DNA from: Gemmatimonadota bacterium
GTDB taxonomy: Bacteria; Gemmatimonadota; Gemmatimonadetes; Gemmatimonadales; GWC2-71-9
Assembly: GCA_003169895.1 (NCBI GenBank)
Contig: PNAE01000006.1
Coordinates: 1-64,000, forward strand
DNA length: 64,000 nt
Reading direction: 5' to 3'
Made by a program: the position numbers and the translations under genes. Every line of letters starts with the position of its first letter. Positions within the stretch are counted from its first letter, which is position 1. Shown piece by piece: positions 4,721 through 62,833 of this stretch. The notes under the pieces were generated by a model. The model did no database searches. It saw nothing but the letters and a program-made list of their open reading frames with translations, and was not told the origin of the DNA.

Positions 4721-4825
4721 AAGCGACCTCGGCGGCGGAGTCGCGTGGATGCTGATCGTGCGCCGCGACAATGCCGGTTCGTTCGAGCGCAGAAGGTGAT
4801 CGTGGGACGCGGCATGAACAGGAGC

Positions 4826-4914
4826 GTAAGAGGTGAAACGTCAGAGGTGAAAAGGATGATCCGACGCACCTTTCACCGTTCACCTTTCACCTTTCACCCT
4901 TCTCCGTTCACCGG
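4826..4914. repeat. Heptamer inverted-arm repeat, locus A
   Basis: Left arm begins GTAAGAGGTGAAACG and continues in GTGAAAA-type 7-base units; after a short centre the right arm runs CACCTTT/CACCGTT units for about 45 bases. The arms are roughly complementary and would fold into a long imperfect hairpin. It lies immediately 3' of the minus-strand lipoprotein gene, where a terminator would be expected, although there is no T-run. Confidence 0.7.
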
Positions 4915-4927
4915 TCATGTCTCGCCC

Positions 4928-15973: not shown

Positions 15974-16056
15974 CGTAAGAGGTGAGACGTAAGACGTAAA
16001 ACGGGCGCTCGGAGTCATGCGGCGTCATGTTTCACGTTTCACGTTTCACGTCTAAC
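15974..16056. repeat. Heptamer inverted-arm repeat, locus B
   Basis: Left arm starts GTAAGAGGTGAGACG and continues with GTAAGAC and GTAAAAC units; the right arm is TTTCACG repeated three times and ends GTCTAAC. The element fills the gap between permease B1 and permease A2, within an otherwise continuous operon, and its arms could form a hairpin that modulates read-through into the second permease pair. Confidence 0.75.
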
Positions 16057-17313: not shown

Positions 17314-18561
17314 CTGGCGTTCCGGTTGAGCAACGTCAGCGAAGGCGTCATCCAGGCCCTCGGCGCCATGCGTGGCAGCAAGCTGCGGTCGGCGCTGACC
17401 GTGCTGGGTGTCGTCATTGGCGTCACGACGGTCATGGTGATGGCGTCGCTGGTCGAGGGTATCCGCGGCCAGATTTTCGCGTCGCTGGAAAACTCGTCGC
17501 CGGAGACGTTCTACGTCATCCGCTTCTTTTCCTCGGTGCCGCTGAATCCGCAGAATCTCCCGGCGGAGGTGCGGGTCCGCCCGATTGTGCGCGAACTGGA
17601 CGCCGAGGCGCTGCGGCGCGTGCCGCTCATCCGGCATGCCGGCCTCTGGGTGCAGGTGCAGCAGCGGATGGAGTACCAGGGCGAGCATTCCCAGCAGCTC
17701 AACGTGTGGGGCGCGGACAACGCGTACCTCGACGTCCAGGGCGGCACCCTCCTGCAGGGCCGCTGGTTCTCCACCGCGGAACTGTCCGGCGGAGCTTCGG
17801 TGCTGGTGATCGAGCAGGATGTGGCGCAACGCTTGCTTGGCCGGCTCGATCCGCTGGGACGGGTGGTACGAATTGGCGGGCGACCGTTCACGATCATCGG
17901 CATCTTCGCCCACCCGGACAACATTTTCCAGCCGCCGGGAGCCCAGGACGGCGGCGTCATTCCCTTCCGGACGGCGCAGCAGAATTTCCATTACGATGAA
18001 ACGAATGCGCTGTTCATCGTGGTACTGGCCGAGCGAGGGGTCAACATCGACGTCGCCAAGGACGCCGCGATCGGTGCGCTCCGCCGATCGCGCGGCCTGC
18101 GGCCGGGCACGGCGAACACCTTCGATCTGTTGACCCAGGATCAGATTCTCGCGATCATCGACAAACTGACATCAGCGTTCTTCCTGGTGATGATGGCGCT
18201 GTCCAGCGTGGCGCTGCTCGTTGGTGGCATCGGCGTGATGGCGATCATGATGGTGTCGGTCACGGATCGCACCCGCGAGATCGGCATCCGCAAGGCACTC
18301 GGTGCGACGCACGCCGAGATCCTGTTCCAGTTCCTGGTGGAAGCCGCCACGCTGACGGCCGTCGGCGGCCTGCTCGGCATCGGCGTCGGCCTGCTGGGTG
18401 GCGAGCTGCTCAAGTCTGTTCTCGGCATCAAGAGCGGTCCGCCGCTCTGGAGCGCGTTGGTCGCGTCGGCCGCCAGCATCGCAATCGGGCTCGTCTTCGG
18501 CGTCGTGCCGGCGAACCGCGCGGCCCGCATGGATCCCGTGGAGGCGTTGAGATACGAGTAG
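17314..18561 (+). CDS. MacB/FtsX-type permease B2
   Basis: 415 residues if read from CTG 17314, which has AGGAG 6 bases upstream; the TTG at 17326 is too far from that site. N-terminal helix LTVLGVVIGVTTVMVMASLVEGI, periplasmic core (TFYVIRFFSSVPLNPQNLPAEV), FtsX helices ([40 protein letters not shown]), and the ending VEALRYE identical to that of B1. It is the last permease of the operon and runs straight into a heptamer repeat element. Confidence 0.88.
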   Translation: MAFRLSNVSEGVIQALGAMRGSKLRSALTVLGVVIGVTTVMVMASLVEGIRGQIFASLENSSPETFYVIRFFSSVPLNPQNLPAEVRVRPIVRELDAEALRRVPLIRHAGLWVQVQQRMEYQGEHSQQLNVWGADNAYLDVQGGTLLQGRWFSTAELSGGASVLVIEQDVAQRLLGRLDPLGRVVRIGGRPFTIIGIFAHPDNIFQPPGAQDGGVIPFRTAQQNFHYDETNALFIVVLAERGVNIDVAKDAAIGALRRSRGLRPGTANTFDLLTQDQILAIIDKLTSAFFLVMMALSSVALLVGGIGVMAIMMVSVTDRTREIGIRKALGATHAEILFQFLVEAATLTAVGGLLGIGVGLLGGELLKSVLGIKSGPPLWSALVASAASIAIGLVFGVVPANRAARMDPVEALRYE

Positions 18562-18636
18562 GTGAGAGGTGAAAGGTGAGAGGGAGCGGCTTGCCGTGGC
18601 GAGCGCCCCTCTCACGTCTGACCTCTCACCTCTTAC
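18562..18636. repeat. Heptamer inverted-arm repeat, locus C
   Basis: Starts on the base after the TAG of permease B2: GTGAGAG, GTGAAAG, GTGAGAG units, a GC-rich centre, then CTCACGTCTGACCTCTCACC and a terminal TCTTAC. The arms are complementary. It separates the export operon from the deacetylase gene, whose ATG lies eight bases later, so it also occupies that gene's leader. Confidence 0.75.
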
Positions 18637-23602: not shown

Positions 23603-23627
23603 AGGCCTGAGCCTTGAGCCTGGCGCC
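23603..23627. repeat. GC-rich heptamer repeat (second family), short copy
   Basis: Three 7-base units (GCCTGAG, CCTTGAG, CCTGGCG) stand in the gap between the glycosidase gene and grpE. The same unit type recurs at three other places in the window. Confidence 0.5.
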
Positions 23628-30389: not shown

Positions 30390-30566
30390 GTAAGACGTGA
30401 GACGTGAGACGTGAGACGTGACCGTCGCCGTCATCCCGAGCGAAGCGAGGGATCGCTTCGTCGCGGGCCGATCCCTCAGTCCCTGCGGTCCTTCGGGATG
30501 ACTCCGCCGGCTGGCCCTTCTCGTCTCTCGTCTCACGTCTCACGTCTCACGTCTCTCGTCTCTCGT
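30390..30566. repeat. Composite repeat, locus D: heptamer arms enclosing a second palindrome
   Basis: Outer left arm: GTAAGAC then GTGAGAC three times. Inner element from 30430 to 30502: GTCATCCCGAGCGAAGCG..., with an imperfect inverted copy ending CTTCGGGATGAC. Outer right arm from about 30517: CTCTCGT and CTCACGT units for about 50 bases. The whole can fold as a hairpin within a hairpin. It lies between pgsA and cinA, both on the minus strand. Confidence 0.8.
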
Positions 30567-33551: not shown

Positions 33552-35225
33552 TCACCCATCATCCATCAGTTCCAAATCTAACGCCTTGGCTGCCGCGTCG
33601 AGCGCGGGATCGCGGCTGCGCAATTGCGTCAAACGCTCGCTCCGGGCGTCTTGCGCCGACAGGCGCCGGGACTGCGCCGGGGTCGCAGCCGCTGCAGCGG
33701 ATGCCGCCTGTACCTTGACCTTGACGGGCGTCCCGAACGTGGCCGTGAGAATGGTCTCCACCGCCGCCAACTGCCGGGCCGCCCCGTCCTGGAACAGCGC
33801 GCTGTCCGGCCCGAACCCCAGCCCCACCATGCCAGGAGCCTCCAGCTTGGGCGTCGCGTGCGCCAGTGCCTGTCCCAGCAATGGGCTCTGGCGAGTGGCG
33901 GTGGCGATGACGTCGCTCCACGTTGCGGCGAGCGTCGCCTCCGTGAGCCCTGAGCCCTGCGCCCTGAGCCCGATTTCGGTAGGCTCGGCCGGGGCGACCG
34001 GGGTCGCCGCTCCCCGGTCCGAGCTTACCGGCCGGGGCTCAAGGCGCAGTGCCGTCCTCTCAGTTATCGGCTTCCCCGCCGCCGCCGGCAAGGGCACCGC
34101 CCCCGCCAGAATCGCCCTCAAGTCCACGGCCCGGTCCATCATCGCCCACCGGAGCAGCAGTGTCTCCAGGCCGATGCGCGGGTTGGCGCTACGCCGCAGC
34201 GCCGGCTCGGCCTCGCCGAGCAGCTTGAGCATGCGGACCGCGTCTTCCGGCGCGAGCCGCGGCGCGATCTCGGCGATCAGACTGCGCGTCGATTCCGGCA
34301 ACCCCTCGGGCTCGGCGCCATAGTGGCGCATGACCAACGCCCGGAGCAATTCCGCGAGGCCGCCTGCAAATTCGGCGAGATCCGCGCCGGCATCGGCGAC
34401 CCGATCCATGATGGCGAATACCTGGCCCGGCTGCCGGTCCGCCACGGCGGCGAGCACCTCGCCGTAGGCCTCGTCGTCGAGCAGACCCAGGGCCTGGCGA
34501 ACGCGGGCGGCCGTCAGGATGCCGTCGCCGAATGACAGGCACTGGTCCAGCACCGACAGCGCGTCGCGCATGCCGCCATCGGCCTGCCGCGCAATCAGCA
34601 CGAGCGCATCGTCTTCGGCGTCGAGATGCTCGGCGGCGAGCACCTGGCGCAGCCGCTGCTGGATCGCCGTGGGACCGATGCGCCGGAAATCGAATCGTTG
34701 CAAGCGCGACATGACCGGTGCCGCGGTGTTGGTGATCTTCTGCGGCTCGGTCGTGGCGAACACGAAGACCACACCCGGCGGCGGCTCTTCCAGGATCTTG
34801 AGCAGCACGTTCCACGCTTCGCGCGTGAGCATATGGGCTTCGTCGATGATATAGACCTTGTGGTGGCCGGCCTGCGACGCCGCGTACATCGCGCGCTCGC
34901 GGAGGTCGCGTGCGTCATCCACGCCGCGATTGGAGGCCGCGTCGATCTCGACGACGTCGAGGTCGGCCGAGCCGTTCCAGATCTTGAGGCACGACGAGCA
35001 CTCGCCGCAGGGCTCCCCGTCAGCGGCACGATGCTCACAGTTGAGCGCCATGGCGAGAATGCGGGCGGCGGTGGTCTTGCCCACGCCGCGCGGCCCGGTC
35101 AGGAGATAGCCATGGCCGACGCGATTTTTCGCGACGGCACCCCGCAGCGCCGCGGCGACGTGGTCCTGGACGACGAGGTCGGCAAAACGGCGGGGGCGAT
35201 AGCGGCGGGCGAGCGCGATGGTCAC
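33552..35225 (-). CDS. dnaX: DNA polymerase III subunit gamma/tau
   Basis: 557 residues from GTG 35225 (VTIALARRYRPRRFADLVVQ, with GCAGGATC upstream); the longer ATG frame runs through the SRP RNA gene and is rejected. Walker A LTGPRGVGKTTAARIL, zinc-binding cysteines (CEHRAADGEPCGECSSC), Walker B with VYIIDEAHMLTREAWNVLLKILEEPP, and sensor motifs identify the clamp-loader ATPase. A linker of Pro/Ala and a C-terminal tau-like region follow. About residues 418-428 (LRAQGSGL) are written by a heptamer repeat, see the repeat entry. It is followed by ebfC and recR. Confidence 0.94.
   Translation of the reverse strand: MTIALARRYRPRRFADLVVQDHVAAALRGAVAKNRVGHGYLLTGPRGVGKTTAARILAMALNCEHRAADGEPCGECSSCLKIWNGSADLDVVEIDAASNRGVDDARDLRERAMYAASQAGHHKVYIIDEAHMLTREAWNVLLKILEEPPPGVVFVFATTEPQKITNTAAPVMSRLQRFDFRRIGPTAIQQRLRQVLAAEHLDAEDDALVLIARQADGGMRDALSVLDQCLSFGDGILTAARVRQALGLLDDEAYGEVLAAVADRQPGQVFAIMDRVADAGADLAEFAGGLAELLRALVMRHYGAEPEGLPESTRSLIAEIAPRLAPEDAVRMLKLLGEAEPALRRSANPRIGLETLLLRWAMMDRAVDLRAILAGAVPLPAAAGKPITERTALRLEPRPVSSDRGAATPVAPAEPTEIGLRAQGSGLTEATLAATWSDVIATATRQSPLLGQALAHATPKLEAPGMVGLGFGPDSALFQDGAARQLAAVETILTATFGTPVKVKVQAASAAAAATPAQSRRLSAQDARSERLTQLRSRDPALDAAAKALDLELMDDG
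33943..33972. repeat. GC-rich heptamer repeat inside the dnaX linker
   Basis: Units GTGAGCC, CTGAGCC, CTGCGCC, CTGAGCC follow each other in phase on the plus strand. On the coding strand they write an in-frame stretch between the clamp-loader core and the C-terminal domain of DnaX. Because 7 and 3 share no factor, each three units give seven codons. Confidence 0.65.
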
Positions 35226-55913: not shown

Positions 55914-55946
55914 CTTCTCTCGTCTCTCGTCTCTCGTCTCTCGTGC
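55914..55946. repeat. Heptamer repeat, single arm, locus F
   Basis: Four CTCTCGT units in tandem between the DsbD-like and TlpA-like genes. Only one arm is present, so no hairpin can form. Confidence 0.7.
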
Positions 55947-56649: not shown

Positions 56650-56654
56650 GGCAG

Positions 56655-56800
56655 GTAAGCGGTGAGAGGTGAGAGGTGAGAGGGGGCGGTGTCATCCCGA
56701 GCGCAGCGAGGGATCGGCCCGCTGCGACGCGATCCCTCGCTGCGCTCGGGATGACCATGGTGCGGCTGTTCCGTCTCACCTCTCACCTCTCACCTCTTAC
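56655..56800. repeat. Composite repeat, locus G: heptamer arms enclosing a 26-bp palindrome
   Basis: Outer arms: GTAAGCG, GTGAGAG (three times) on the left and CTCACCT units ending in CTCTTAC on the right. Inner element: 56691-56716 (begins GTCATCCCGAGCGCAGCG) is perfectly inverted at 56730-56755 with a 13-base loop. The right outer arm forms the last codons and stop of ispG. The design is the same as at 30390-30566. Confidence 0.85.
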
Positions 56801-58312: not shown

Positions 58313-58344
58313 CCGAGCCCGGCGCCCGGAGCCCAGAGCCCGGC
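58313..58344. repeat. GC-rich heptamer repeat after the degenerate kinase gene
   Basis: Units CCGAGCC, CGGCGCC, CGGAGCC, CAGAGCC, CGG run up to the stop codon of the kinase-like gene (minus strand), mirroring the placement of the other repeat family at gene 3' ends. Confidence 0.6.
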
Positions 58345-59342
58345 TAACGGCTGGCGGCGACGGGGAGCGTCACGGTGGTGCCCTCCTCGCTGACATCGAT
58401 CCGACCGCCATGTGCCTGAATGATACGCCGAGCCAGCGCGACGTCCGCGTCCAGCGTCGGCGGGTGTCCTCCGAGCACGGCGACGCGAAGGTCACCGCGC
58501 TCCGCCTGCCCGACGATCGACAACGCGCTGCCTGGAGCGGCGTGACGAACAACGTGCCGCAGCAGGAACTCGAGCGCCTGCTGCAGCCGGATCCGGTCCC
58601 CCAGCACGCGGGGCAGCCCCGGGAGCACGTCAAGCCGCACGGTCACGCCCGCCTTGGCGCCGTCGGCCTCGAGTTGTGGACGCAGGCTCTGCAGCACGTC
58701 CGCGACGCGGATGGCGTCGCGCCGCATCTGCAGCGCCCCGCGATCGAGCTGGGCGATCTCCTGCAACCGGGCGACGTCGGTTTCCGCGGCCTCCATGCCT
58801 GCTCGCGCGGCTTCGAGCATTTCCTCCTGGTTGTCGTTGAGGGCGCCGAAGTGATTCTCCAGCAGGATGTGCAGGGCGATACGCGCCTCGTCGAGCTGGC
58901 GGCGAACGGCGGCCGACGCTTCGTCGAGGAGCACGGCATATTCCGCAATCCGATCGGCCGCGGCCCGTTCGCGCTCCCGGCTGCCGGCTTCGGCGACGGT
59001 CACCGCGCTGCTGAGATGATCGACGACTTCCTCGATGGAATCGAGTTCGTCGGGCGCAACGTCGGCCTCGGGAAGGGCCGCACTCCGCACCATGCTGAGC
59101 GGCGAGCGCGACGGTGTCGGGCGACGCTCAGCCGAGCCGGCGAGGCGCTCGATGCGACGCGCGACATAGCGGGTGTTCTGCCACGCGAGAATCAGCGAGC
59201 CGAGCGCCGAAACCGCGGCGGCGACCACAACCCACTCGGGGGCGGAGCGGTGGTAATGCCCCCAATACGCCAGGGCCGCCACGGTAAATACGCCAAGGAT
59301 GGCCGGCGCCACGGCGAGATAGAGCCGGTGCGAGATCTTCAC
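58344..59342 (-). CDS. Degenerate histidine kinase (KdpD C-terminal half, pseudokinase)
   Basis: 332 residues. Two N-terminal membrane helices (LAVAPAILGVFTVAALAYWG, WVVVAAAVSALGSLILAWQN), then a helical region aligned to the HisKA helices. The motif DEARIALHILLEN (from Asp151) occupies the place of HELRTPLHIL: the phospho-acceptor His is Asp and the Pro is Ala. The N-box is LLRHVVRHA (no Asn), and the G1 box is VAVLGGHPP with no DxGxG. A recognisable end RRIIQAHGGRIDVSEEGTTVTLPVA remains. It overlaps the KdpD sensor-half gene by 4 bases. It probably forms a complex with it and acts without phosphotransfer; that is inference. Confidence 0.75.
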   Translation of the reverse strand: MKISHRLYLAVAPAILGVFTVAALAYWGHYHRSAPEWVVVAAAVSALGSLILAWQNTRYVARRIERLAGSAERRPTPSRSPLSMVRSAALPEADVAPDELDSIEEVVDHLSSAVTVAEAGSRERERAAADRIAEYAVLLDEASAAVRRQLDEARIALHILLENHFGALNDNQEEMLEAARAGMEAAETDVARLQEIAQLDRGALQMRRDAIRVADVLQSLRPQLEADGAKAGVTVRLDVLPGLPRVLGDRIRLQQALEFLLRHVVRHAAPGSALSIVGQAERGDLRVAVLGGHPPTLDADVALARRIIQAHGGRIDVSEEGTTVTLPVAASR

Positions 59343-60529: not shown

Positions 60530-61054
60530 CTAACGTCGGCGCAGGACGAAATCGCCGGTGGCACTCGGACCGGCGCGCTGGTCGGCGCGCCAGCGCCCGA
60601 CGAGGGAGTCGCCCCGCCAGAAGCCTGCCAGCGCGATCGGCCACTTCGCTTGCGGCGAGAGCGAAATGACCACGGAATCGCCGCGCAAAGCGACCCAGAC
60701 GTCGGGCGTGCCGGTCACCAGACCCGTTGCGACACCGAGCGTGTCGAGCCTGATGTCGTAGGTGCCAAACGCAACGGGCGGCGCGCCGAACATCGAGGTG
60801 GTGACGCGCTCCCGATTGAGCACCAGCGCCAGCGCGCCGACGGTGCTGGCGCGGACCGTCTCGTGGCCATATTCACCGGAATCCGCGCGCAAGGCGATTA
60901 CCCACGCCCCGTCAAGCCGGGCCACCGCCGGCTCGGCGAGATGCGCGCGCCACGCCACCATGTCAGGCCGGCAGGCCGCAACGAGGACGATGGCCATGAT
61001 CGCCCCGCCCGTTCGCGCCACCAAGGCCCGACCGAGCAGCGACGCGCTATGCAT
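60530..61054 (-). CDS. Lipoprotein in the kdp locus
   Basis: 174 residues from ATG 61054, overlapping the porin stop (TGATG). Lipobox in AIMAIVLVAACRPD. The mature part is lipocalin- or beta-sandwich-like: LDGAWVIALRADSG, SMFGAPPVAFGTYDIRLDTLG, VWVALRGDSVVISLSPQ, IALAGFWRGDSLVGRWRAD, ending FVLRRR. No family recognised. Its place between a porin and kdpD suggests an outer-membrane or periplasmic accessory of potassium uptake; unproven. Confidence 0.55.
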   Translation of the reverse strand: MHSASLLGRALVARTGGAIMAIVLVAACRPDMVAWRAHLAEPAVARLDGAWVIALRADSGEYGHETVRASTVGALALVLNRERVTTSMFGAPPVAFGTYDIRLDTLGVATGLVTGTPDVWVALRGDSVVISLSPQAKWPIALAGFWRGDSLVGRWRADQRAGPSATGDFVLRRR

Positions 61055-62208
61055 CAGAAGATGTGTGACACGCCGAGTGCGATCGACAACTGGCTGTGTT
61101 GTCCGTCGTACACCGGCAGGGTGGAGTGGTCGTACCGGAGTTCCGGACGTACCAGGGCATGTTGCCAGCTCTTGAGGTTCAGCGTCGCGGTCAGGCTGCT
61201 CACCGTTTGTCCGCCGTTGACCGGATAGCCGAGTCCGCCGGACAGCCGCGCACCGTCGCGGTCGTTGACGAGGTCGGCCCTGATGCCCAGGCCCACGTGC
61301 GGGGACAAATCGGCTGCGGTCCAGAAGCCGACACCGTACCACTTGGCGGTCGTGCCGCCAGCCGCGGCGCCGTCCTCCTGCCCGTAGTCGAGCTGGAGCC
61401 AGGTGGTGACGCTGCCGCCAAACTTGCGCGACAGGAGCGCCTGGGCGCCGCTCCGCAGGTTGGTGGTGCTACCAGCCTGTTCGGGGCCGACATATCCGAG
61501 GAGCGCGATGGTGGTGGCGCTGTCCGGGGCAAGCCCGAGTCGACCCATGAGGCTCTTGCCGCGGTTGTTGTCGGCGACAAGATCCCAGCCATTGGTGACG
61601 CGGAGTTCGGCGTCGAGCCGCGAACTGAACTTGCCATCGATCTCGATCCCGGTTTCGGTGAACGGCTCGAGAAAGATGTCCTGCGTGCCGACATCGAGAT
61701 TCGGATTCTGGACGTCCTCGAACACTTCAAGACCCATCAACGTGGCCATCTTGCCGGCCTTGAACTGGACATAGCGGTCCTTGCCGGCGGGCAGATTGAG
61801 CGTCACATACGCCTGCCAGATGTCGGCATCGGCGCCGAGATCGAGTCCACCGGACTTGACGACGGCAGCGTTCTGACCGAACACCGGCTCGAAGTGGAAC
61901 CCGGCATCCCAGCTGTCCGTCGCGGCCACCCGTTCGAAGACGACATCGCCGACGTTGAGCATGAACTGGTTGTGATCGCGTCCGAAGAGGCGTCCCACGA
62001 TCGCCTCGTCCGTGGCGCGCGTGGACGCCGTAAACGAGGTGGTGACATAGCCGGTGATCGTGATCGGTGCGGGCTTCGCGGCGGCTGAGTCAGCGGATTG
62101 AGCTGCGAGCATGTTGGGAATGCCCAGGGCCCAGAGCCCAAAGCCCAGAGCCAGGCCCGGAGCCCGGAGCCGAGAGCTGGTGGTAGTGATTGGAGACTTC
62201 GTCGACAT
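61054..62208 (-). CDS. Outer-membrane beta-barrel porin (BBP2-like) in the kdp locus
   Basis: 384 residues. Signal peptide (residues about 1-37) ends in MLAAQ; its n- and h-regions (residues 11-29) are built by a heptamer repeat. The mature protein starts with ITITGYVTTSFTAST and has alternating-hydrophobic strands (NQFMLNVGDVVFERVAATDSWDAGFHFEPVFGQ, YVTLNLPAGKDRYVQFKAGKM, LEPFTETGIEIDGKF) ending in aromatic SIALGVSHIF, as outer-membrane barrels do. The pattern is that of the putative beta-barrel porin-2 (OmpL-like) family. It lies between kdpC and the lipoprotein on one strand, so it may admit K+ for the Kdp pump. Confidence 0.75.
   Translation of the reverse strand: MSTKSPITTTSSRLRAPGLALGFGLWALGIPNMLAAQSADSAAAKPAPITITGYVTTSFTASTRATDEAIVGRLFGRDHNQFMLNVGDVVFERVAATDSWDAGFHFEPVFGQNAAVVKSGGLDLGADADIWQAYVTLNLPAGKDRYVQFKAGKMATLMGLEVFEDVQNPNLDVGTQDIFLEPFTETGIEIDGKFSSRLDAELRVTNGWDLVADNNRGKSLMGRLGLAPDSATTIALLGYVGPEQAGSTTNLRSGAQALLSRKFGGSVTTWLQLDYGQEDGAAAGGTTAKWYGVGFWTAADLSPHVGLGIRADLVNDRDGARLSGGLGYPVNGGQTVSSLTATLNLKSWQHALVRPELRYDHSTLPVYDGQHSQLSIALGVSHIF
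62122..62177. repeat. GC-rich heptamer repeat coding for a signal peptide
   Basis: Eight units: GCCCAGG, GCCCAGA, GCCCAAA, GCCCAGA, GCCAGGC, CCGGAGC, CCGGAGC, CGAGAGC. They lie within the porin gene and code residues 11-29 (ending LGFGLWALG) on the minus strand. Confidence 0.75.
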
Positions 62209-62230
62209 CGTTGGATCACCTCAAGAGAGT

Positions 62231-62833
62231 TCAGCGCGCCGCAGCAGGCCGTGGCAGCACGCTGTCGAGCGCAATGTTGAGCAGGAGGACGTTCACCCGC
62301 GGCTCGCCGAAGAAGCCGAACTGGCGACCAGTGATGTGTTGCTCAACCAGCGTCCGCACCCGGGCGCTGTCGGCTTGGCGCGCCCTGGCCACGCGAGCCA
62401 CCTGCAGGAAGGCGTTGGCGGGCGAGATGTCGGGATCGAGTCCCGACGCGGAACTGGTGACCATGTCGGCGGGAATACTTCCCTTCACCGCACCGTTGTT
62501 CTTGATGGCGTCGTCGATGGCGCCAGCGATCAGCGTGTCGGCAAGCTTGCGATCGGTCGGCCCCTTGTTGGTGCCGCTCGACGCGCTAGCGTCGTAGCCG
62601 TTCCCCGCCGCCGACGGCCGCGGATGGAAGTACTCCGGCCGCGTGAAGGTCTGCCCGATCAGCGCACTGCCGACGACGCGCCCGTTCGCCGTGACGAGCG
62701 ACCCGTTCGCCTGGTGCGGGAAGAGTACCTGCGCGAGCCCGGTCACGATCCCGGGGTACACCACGCCGGTGATGACGCAGAGCAGCAGCGTCAGGACGAT
62801 CGCGGGACGTAGTTGCTTCCTGAGCATGGTCAC
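62231..62833 (-). CDS. kdpC: Potassium-transporting ATPase subunit KdpC
   Basis: 200 residues from GTG 62833, overlapping the kdpB stop (GTGA). One N-terminal membrane helix ([28 protein letters not shown]), then [51 protein letters not shown] (conserved KdpC motif QxFxxPxYFxxRPSA), [27 protein letters not shown], and the end [16 protein letters not shown]. It stabilises the KdpFABC complex. It is followed directly by the porin gene. Confidence 0.95.

Follow-up and report, generated by a model that had tools for sequence, protein, structure and literature searches.

Heptanucleotide hairpin repeats as a probable, occasional source of secretion leaders in a Gemmatimonadota genus

Signal peptides are easy to evolve, and natural routes from non-coding DNA to the leader of a conserved gene are seldom documented. 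The closest described case is from Yersinia: a predicted signal peptide there contains a miniature inverted-repeat transposable element (MITE), of the kind represented by the small mobile enterobacterial sequences RU-2/YPAL and RU-1 (Delihas 2007, PMC2759123; review PMC2229807). Rickettsia palindromic elements (RPEs) are found within and between coding sequences, in frame, where the protein tolerates them (PMC2229807). Intergenic heptamers are described in Xanthomonas (GGGAATC) and Nostoc (GGGGA(C/T)T) (PMC4692102) and in Beggiatoaceae (TAACTGA; PMC4679880), and in Borg elements fast-evolving tandem repeats give rise to disordered regions of proteins (PMC9879509). Here we analyse a stretch of 64,000 nucleotides (nt) from contig PNAE01000006.1 (GCA_003169895.1), hereafter the window, to which coordinates refer, in which a tandem array of 7-base units encodes much of the predicted leader of a BBP2/OmpL-like porin. 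This array probably belongs to a set of intergenic heptamer repeats particular to the genus, whose hairpin arms occasionally invade the 5' ends of genes and supply leaders.

The porin leader and its array

The locus comprises the following features.

62122..62177, minus strand: heptanucleotide array, TCTGGGC type in the sense direction, porin codons 11-29
61054..62208, minus strand: BBP2/OmpL-like porin gene (PF07642, open reading frame, orthologues), directly after kdpC
62206..62208, minus strand: porin start codon ATG, upstream of the repeat
62214..62222, minus strand: strong Shine-Dalgarno sequence GAGGTGATC, with 7 nt between GAGGTGA and ATG
62231..62833, minus strand: kdpC (PF02669, E 1.6e-72), immediately upstream of the porin gene in the same apparent operon; a KdpD-type gene is also near

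The original prediction described eight 7-mers at 62122-62177 that encode porin residues 11-29. The array is real and covers these residues on the antisense strand of the open reading frame, although it is made up of seven 7-mers and one 5-mer (GCCCAGG GCCCAGA GCCCAAA GCCCAGA GCCAG GCCCGGA GCCCGGA GCCGAGA GC). The encoded residues, SSRLRAPGLALGFGLWALG, comprise a basic part, SSRLRAPG, and then a hydrophobic core, LALGFGLWALG. The start codon lies upstream of the repeat, which answers an objection foreseen in the original prediction, and alternative starts downstream of it would leave no leader.

The resulting leader, predicted as MSTKSPITTTSSRLRAPGLALGFGLWALGIPNMLA-AQ with the cleavage site placed by inspection, has two features of a Sec signal peptide. 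K4, R13 and R15 stand ahead of the core and after the true start, and the core ALGFGLWALGI has a mean Kyte-Doolittle hydropathy of 1.84, slightly under the 1.88-2.61 of orthologue cores. The sequence then runs into ...NMLAAQ, a candidate site for small residues at -3/-1; judged by inspection, its AAQ context recurs in orthologue leaders ending (L)AAQ. Between Met1 and AAQ, LALGFGLWALG is the sole hydrophobic stretch, and the sequence continues ...NMLAAQSADSAAAKP, with a match to PF07642 (BBP2) over residues 48-365 (E 2.6e-54). Since the leader has no hydrophobic core apart from the one encoded by the array, an outer-membrane porin starting at the 62208 ATG would, given known Sec requirements, depend on the repeat for its leader.

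Porin orthologues from sister genera share 45-52% identity with this protein, and the barrel alignments begin mostly at query residue 32-47. Their leaders are ordinary and repeat-free, usually with a Shine-Dalgarno sequence (MKHITTIALGTLWLVAPAALAAQ, MRLLSALLIAPVWLAAQ, MKLITARAVFLALWLVAPGVVYAQ). Since the barrels align and the orthologue leaders are ordinary, the repeat appears to have replaced the n- and h-regions of the porin leader; the (A)AQ context that precedes the mature protein is common to both. We also considered the porin array as a hairpin in itself and dropped this possibility, as the array alone folds no better than shuffles (z 0.03).

Heptamer-encoded leaders in further genes

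The comparison with repeat-free orthologues that had been proposed finds ordinary leaders in the orthologues, and leaders written by repeats recur in further genes and in sister species (sampled genomes carry G labels below). Our leader sample holds five genes and nine alleles. The most extensive case is envC, a peptidase M23 gene with a coiled coil, located after an ftsX-like sequence. In four species its leaders derive from different heptamers and the mature start is conserved: ...SSLVFSFLLLVSLASRLSS-QQPDLEQ in G001 (TCTCGTC units, where a full hairpin is present and its 3' arm enters the leader), MSRPSLFAFLLLASLVSRLSS-QQSDLEQ in G009 (TCTCGTC), ...TALLLAASVSPLTFHVSRLSAHVSRLSA-QQPDLEQ in G000 (TTTCACG) and ...LLSFLFSLLSVAPLAA-QSNPDLE in G005 (TCTCTTT). 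The envC leader is ordinary in G007 (...STLVVALASLVFVALPAWA-QQPDLAQ) and in G008.

An amidohydrolase has repeat leaders in G001 (MRTRNAVAVLVSRLSSLVSLISLISLAAPVSA-QSADL) and G000 (MSHRVVLVSLLASLVSLAAPGAAA-QSADL); in G004, G005, G006 and G008 its start is instead preceded by an array specific to each species. A tetratricopeptide repeat (TPR) protein of G001 has the leader MRIKAGLTRFTSGLWALGSGLLTIAILPRPLPA-QGHIDL, built from units of the porin type; its orthologues in G007 and G009 are without the array, the G007 leader being ordinary. A lipoprotein of G000 (MRRGVLASRLSSLLCRSAIAALAAIAPLLSA-C) has a G001 orthologue that lacks the array. In a G000 kinase, an array stands just ahead of a transmembrane segment (KRSSSLVSRLSSLLLVSALAIVALWGW). 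Two candidates, L011:6952 (heptosyltransferase-like) and window position 16027 (MacB-like permease), do not count as leader cases, since each has a better start further downstream.

Synonymous-codon shuffles following local usage keep the peptide and remove repeats at the DNA level. Compared with 20,000 such shuffles, porin codons 11-29 have a lag-7 match of 0.74 versus 0.48 (p = 5e-5, the shuffle floor), and an excess at lag 7 is present in all nine repeat leaders (porin, amidohydrolases, four envC, TPR protein and lipoprotein; p 5e-5 to 0.02). Three controls, the G007 envC (p 0.27), the G007 TPR protein (p 0.75) and a repeat-free porin leader (p 0.06), have no significant excess. The 7-base periodicity of the leaders therefore exceeds what their peptides require.

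Any 7-mer repeat encodes one heptapeptide cycle that is the same in all frames, because 7 and 3 share no factor. As predicted, three units of period 7 can give a hydrophobic seven-residue cycle, TCTGGGC reading SGLWALG in every frame. The description of such repeats as a ready-made secretion signal applies to the Arg-free SGLWALG but not to the common TCTCGTC, whose cycle, SRLSSLV, contains an Arg. Leader cores derived from TCTCGTC are mutated copies without this Arg (LVSLISLISLA, FSFLLLVSLA), which suggests that selection for hydrophobicity followed intrusion. Core hydropathies of the repeat leaders are within or near orthologue values.

A class of polarised intergenic hairpins

Period-7 arrays are abundant in this genome. 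The window holds nine, compared with none for periods 4-6 and 8-11 and none in trinucleotide shuffles, and 864 kb sampled from this genome holds 33, compared with 0-6 for other non-harmonic periods. Array counts in this analysis refer to sampled stretches, of which L018, L019, L021, L026 and L027 were picked for GCCCAGA arrays and those of G003 were also chosen by hits. Coding sequence takes up 92% of the 864 kb but 14% of the bases in arrays (around 86% being intergenic), according to crude gene calls from a simple hexamer model made for this analysis. Exact 7-nt units, their excess and their mostly intergenic position identify the arrays as long heptanucleotide simple-sequence repeats. A dedicated role as a source of signal peptides is contradicted by this distribution; what stands of the idea that repeat expansion makes signal peptides is that a repeat can write the n/h-region of a protein predicted to be exported, leaders being an occasional consequence only.

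Stretches of 22-37 nt in the porin array match arrays elsewhere in the genome at 89-96%. Of the further copies originally proposed within the window, the one at 23603 is only a degenerate GCC(T/C)TGA-type sequence, and two others are looser relatives (the first two lines below).

33944..33971, unstranded: related array TGAGCCC, within the linker part of the dnaX-like gene at 33552-35225 (minus strand)
58317..58341, unstranded: array GAGCCCG of the porin unit type, intergenic, 2 nt from the stop of a minus-strand gene (58344-59342)
55916..55944, unstranded: array TCTCTCG, intergenic, occupying the gap between two minus-strand genes

The class was found in most sampled members of the genus, with heptamers that differ by species: ACTAGAG in G004; ACCTACG, AACATCC and AACGGTG in G008; AAGAGAG and AACGGAG in G005; and ACGAGAG in G001 and G003. 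No period-7 arrays were found in the 80 kb of G007 examined. The TCTCRYC unit is rare outside the genus, save for a few genomes in one other family of the order, and the TCTGGGC unit of the porin occurs in 4 of 151 genomes searched, one match (G001, contig C39) being the second leader with the porin unit. Scans of genome contigs with the porin and with a pattern of Shine-Dalgarno sequence, ATG and heptamer gave nothing usable.

Arrays usually abut stop codons and are often paired as inverted arms, forming long hairpins (z -7 to -15; median loop 43 nt). The purine-rich arm comes first in 33 of the 33 inverted pairs scored, across five species and many units. This arrangement is unchanged by reverse complementation, so one rule applies to both strands. 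Of the 60 arrays lying at most 20 nt after a stop, 56 are purine-rich in the sense strand, and of the 22 before a start, 17 are pyrimidine-rich. Within genes, the sense strand is pyrimidine-rich in all seven arrays in the first 60 codons and purine-rich in six of the eight in the last 60. Arrays near gene starts read SRLSSLV or SGLWALG and those near gene ends DERRETR; examples of array-derived C-terminal tails are RDESRETRDERR and GETRDERRETR. Owing to the fixed polarity, gene 5' ends receive arms that read as hydrophobic and 3' ends mostly arms that read as charged. The hairpins listed from the window are as follows.

4825..4917, unstranded: heptamer hairpin, CGTAAGAGGTGAAA and CACCTTT arms
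15978..16051, unstranded: heptamer hairpin, GTAAGAC and TCACGTT arms, between two plus-strand genes
18560..18633, unstranded: heptamer hairpin, AGGTGAG and CCTCTCA arms
30393..30566, unstranded: heptamer hairpin, intergenic; purine arm 30393-30421 (AGACGTG), pyrimidine arm 30519-30566 (TCTCGTC/CACGTCT)
56654..56797, unstranded: heptamer hairpin, arms 56654-56683 (GGTGAGA) and 56774-56797 (TCTCACC), z = -15; the second arm enters the 3' end of an ispG-like gene (C-terminal ...RGER*)

Several side observations accompany this class. Heptamer arms lengthen the 3' ends of many genes and add tails such as RDERRETRDERR to otherwise conserved proteins (window 56774-56797; L024:11614; L125:14871; L133:15318; L137:17752; L149:89; L156:9808; L176:8005; L234, L235, L239, L242 and L246). 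One apparent membrane-protein gene holds two arrays, at L243:1595-1623 and 2117-2140 (G000 C8, around 1035100), which read as the charged KRDERRETRDV and GETRDEGRE. Some loops hold a dispersed palindrome, TCATCCCGAGCG(A/C)AGCGAGGGATC...GATCCCTC...GGGATGAC (window 30422-30518 and 56684-56773; L244:1504-1600), which seems to be a second repeat family nested inside the hairpins. The heptamer set is species-specific and the purine-first polarity is constant across the genus (L262, L249, L267 and others), so that this polarity is possibly a rule of array birth or maintenance. An array adjoins an apparent tRNA gene in two species (G000:C11:245846-245914, L210; G001:C2:6616, L211), which suggests that arrays mark the ends of RNA genes too; one match to a heptamer plus GCSCAG was rejected as a leader because its array sits beside an apparent tRNA gene. 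Contigs of G001 begin or end in arrays (L120:1-127, L126:1-19, L125:1-70 and the end of L172), which implies that draft assemblies in the genus break there and that array counts are likely underestimates.

Origin of the leaders and relation to known systems

We propose that tandem 7-base units typically arise as the two arms of an intergenic hairpin, with the purine arm, loop and pyrimidine arm in this order. The arms may grow, turn over or copy between loci, and some would enter neighbouring coding sequence. The strand entering a 5' end would be pyrimidine-rich and give a cycle rich in Ser/Leu/Val or Gly/Leu/Trp/Ala, the strand entering a 3' end would usually give a charged Arg/Glu/Asp tail, and whatever the frame of intrusion, peptides of one kind would result. 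An N-terminus of this sort would be selected against in cytosolic proteins; in exported proteins it could replace the n/h-region of a Sec signal peptide. In the porin, CGG-bearing units supply the basic SSRLRAPG, and TCTGGGC/TTTGGGC units the core. The sequences themselves show the anatomy, polarity and recurrence of the repeats, the excess periodicity at the DNA level and the orthologues free of arrays; working export, the mode of growth or copying and purifying selection in cytosolic genes are inferred. Leaders would then be an occasional by-product of intergenic hairpin repeats and not their main role. We hold it quite possible, short of probable, that the repeats form a standing supply of leaders for exported genes, overwritten repeatedly by the current heptamer of each species, because hairpin polarity is fixed and the 7-base unit is indifferent to frame; the envC leaders of four species would be an example.

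The simplest alternative is that the leader repeat is a by-product of the Leu/Ala/Ser-rich composition and biased codons of any signal peptide. Leaders are indeed compositionally simple, and one repeat-free porin leader is borderline at lag 7. This explanation is nonetheless so improbable that we regard it as largely refuted, given that shuffles of the same peptides have far lower lag-7 identity (p down to 5e-5), that the G007 envC and TPR controls have no excess, that the porin array closely resembles arrays at other loci and that each leader has the heptamer type of its own species. The scattered copies, some with loops in common (99% identity over 97 nt between 30421-30519 and L244), and the extra sequence, including the array, in the G000 lipoprotein relative to G001 could instead point to a mobile palindromic element, MITE-like or RPE-like, inserted into leaders. 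MITE-like inverted arms are present. However, the arrays have no common consensus: heptamers vary within and between species, the majority of the 37 loops resemble no other loop, the shared loops contain the separate dispersed palindrome, and nothing corresponds to the consensus body of around 100-200 bp in MITE, ERIC, RU-2 and RPE elements. We therefore judge this origin very unlikely.

It is also unlikely, if less so, that the array was selected as a nucleic acid, for a role in termination, mRNA stability, ribosome docking or recombination, and is merely tolerated in a leader whose peptide has no export role. Most arrays are intergenic, adjoin stop codons and form strong hairpins, and polarised heptamers are described near stops in Xanthomonas (PMC4692102). 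Against this, without the repeat the outer-membrane porin would have no leader, the porin array alone folds no better than shuffles, and every clear N-terminal intrusion affects an exported or lipidated protein. The origin from hairpin arms that we favour has its own difficulties. No partner arm lies near the porin array, and its hairpin origin is inferred from class membership; nor was a close relative found that has the porin without the array and could date the event, the nearest porin being 51% identical. The repeat is not always the core, as it forms only the n-region in the G000 lipoprotein and the C-terminal half of the leader in G000 envC, and a Wzi-like gene (L027:7682) may carry the hydrophilic strand near its N-terminus. 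Start codons are uncertain in G001 envC, which has no clear Shine-Dalgarno sequence, at L011 and at window position 16027. The test of hydrophobicity used here is a simple one, the known cases amount to only five genes, and arrays located in leaders are a small minority of all arrays.

Sister species hold alleles with and without the repeat (envC, amidohydrolase and TPR protein), which makes the process directly testable. The strand rule, together with the arithmetic of 7 against 3, predicts the peptide by gene end, hydrophobic at starts and charged at stops. For annotation, heptamers blur start-codon calls and C-termini. Within partial coverage of the literature, neither simple heptamer arrays serving conserved genes as leaders nor different heptamers forming the leader of one orthologue appeared in earlier reports.

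As here, the enterobacterial protein with an RU-2/YPAL or RU-1 element has homologues in other genera with unrelated leaders. Those elements are around 100-170 bp long with a defined consensus and affect one exported protein of unknown function, whereas the repeats in this genus are plain 7-base arrays that share no consensus and occur in conserved genes (envC, porin, amidohydrolase) of several species, with different heptamers. RPEs are likewise palindromic repeats both inside and between genes, but they measure 105-146 bp and have a consensus, unlike tandem heptamers at gene ends with strict strand polarity. Borg repeats also build protein segments, which are disordered regions and not secretion leaders (PMC9879509). 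The Xanthomonas and Nostoc heptamers are similar in their mostly intergenic arrays of period 7 and in a G-rich strand that is sense just after stops and antisense just before starts (PMC4692102). The heptamers of Xanthomonas, Nostoc and Beggiatoaceae consist of essentially one unit per lineage, were proposed to be quadruplexes or binding sites and, in the texts consulted, are not reported to encode leaders, whereas in this genus the heptamers make up paired inverted arms, and a single genome or species has many units.
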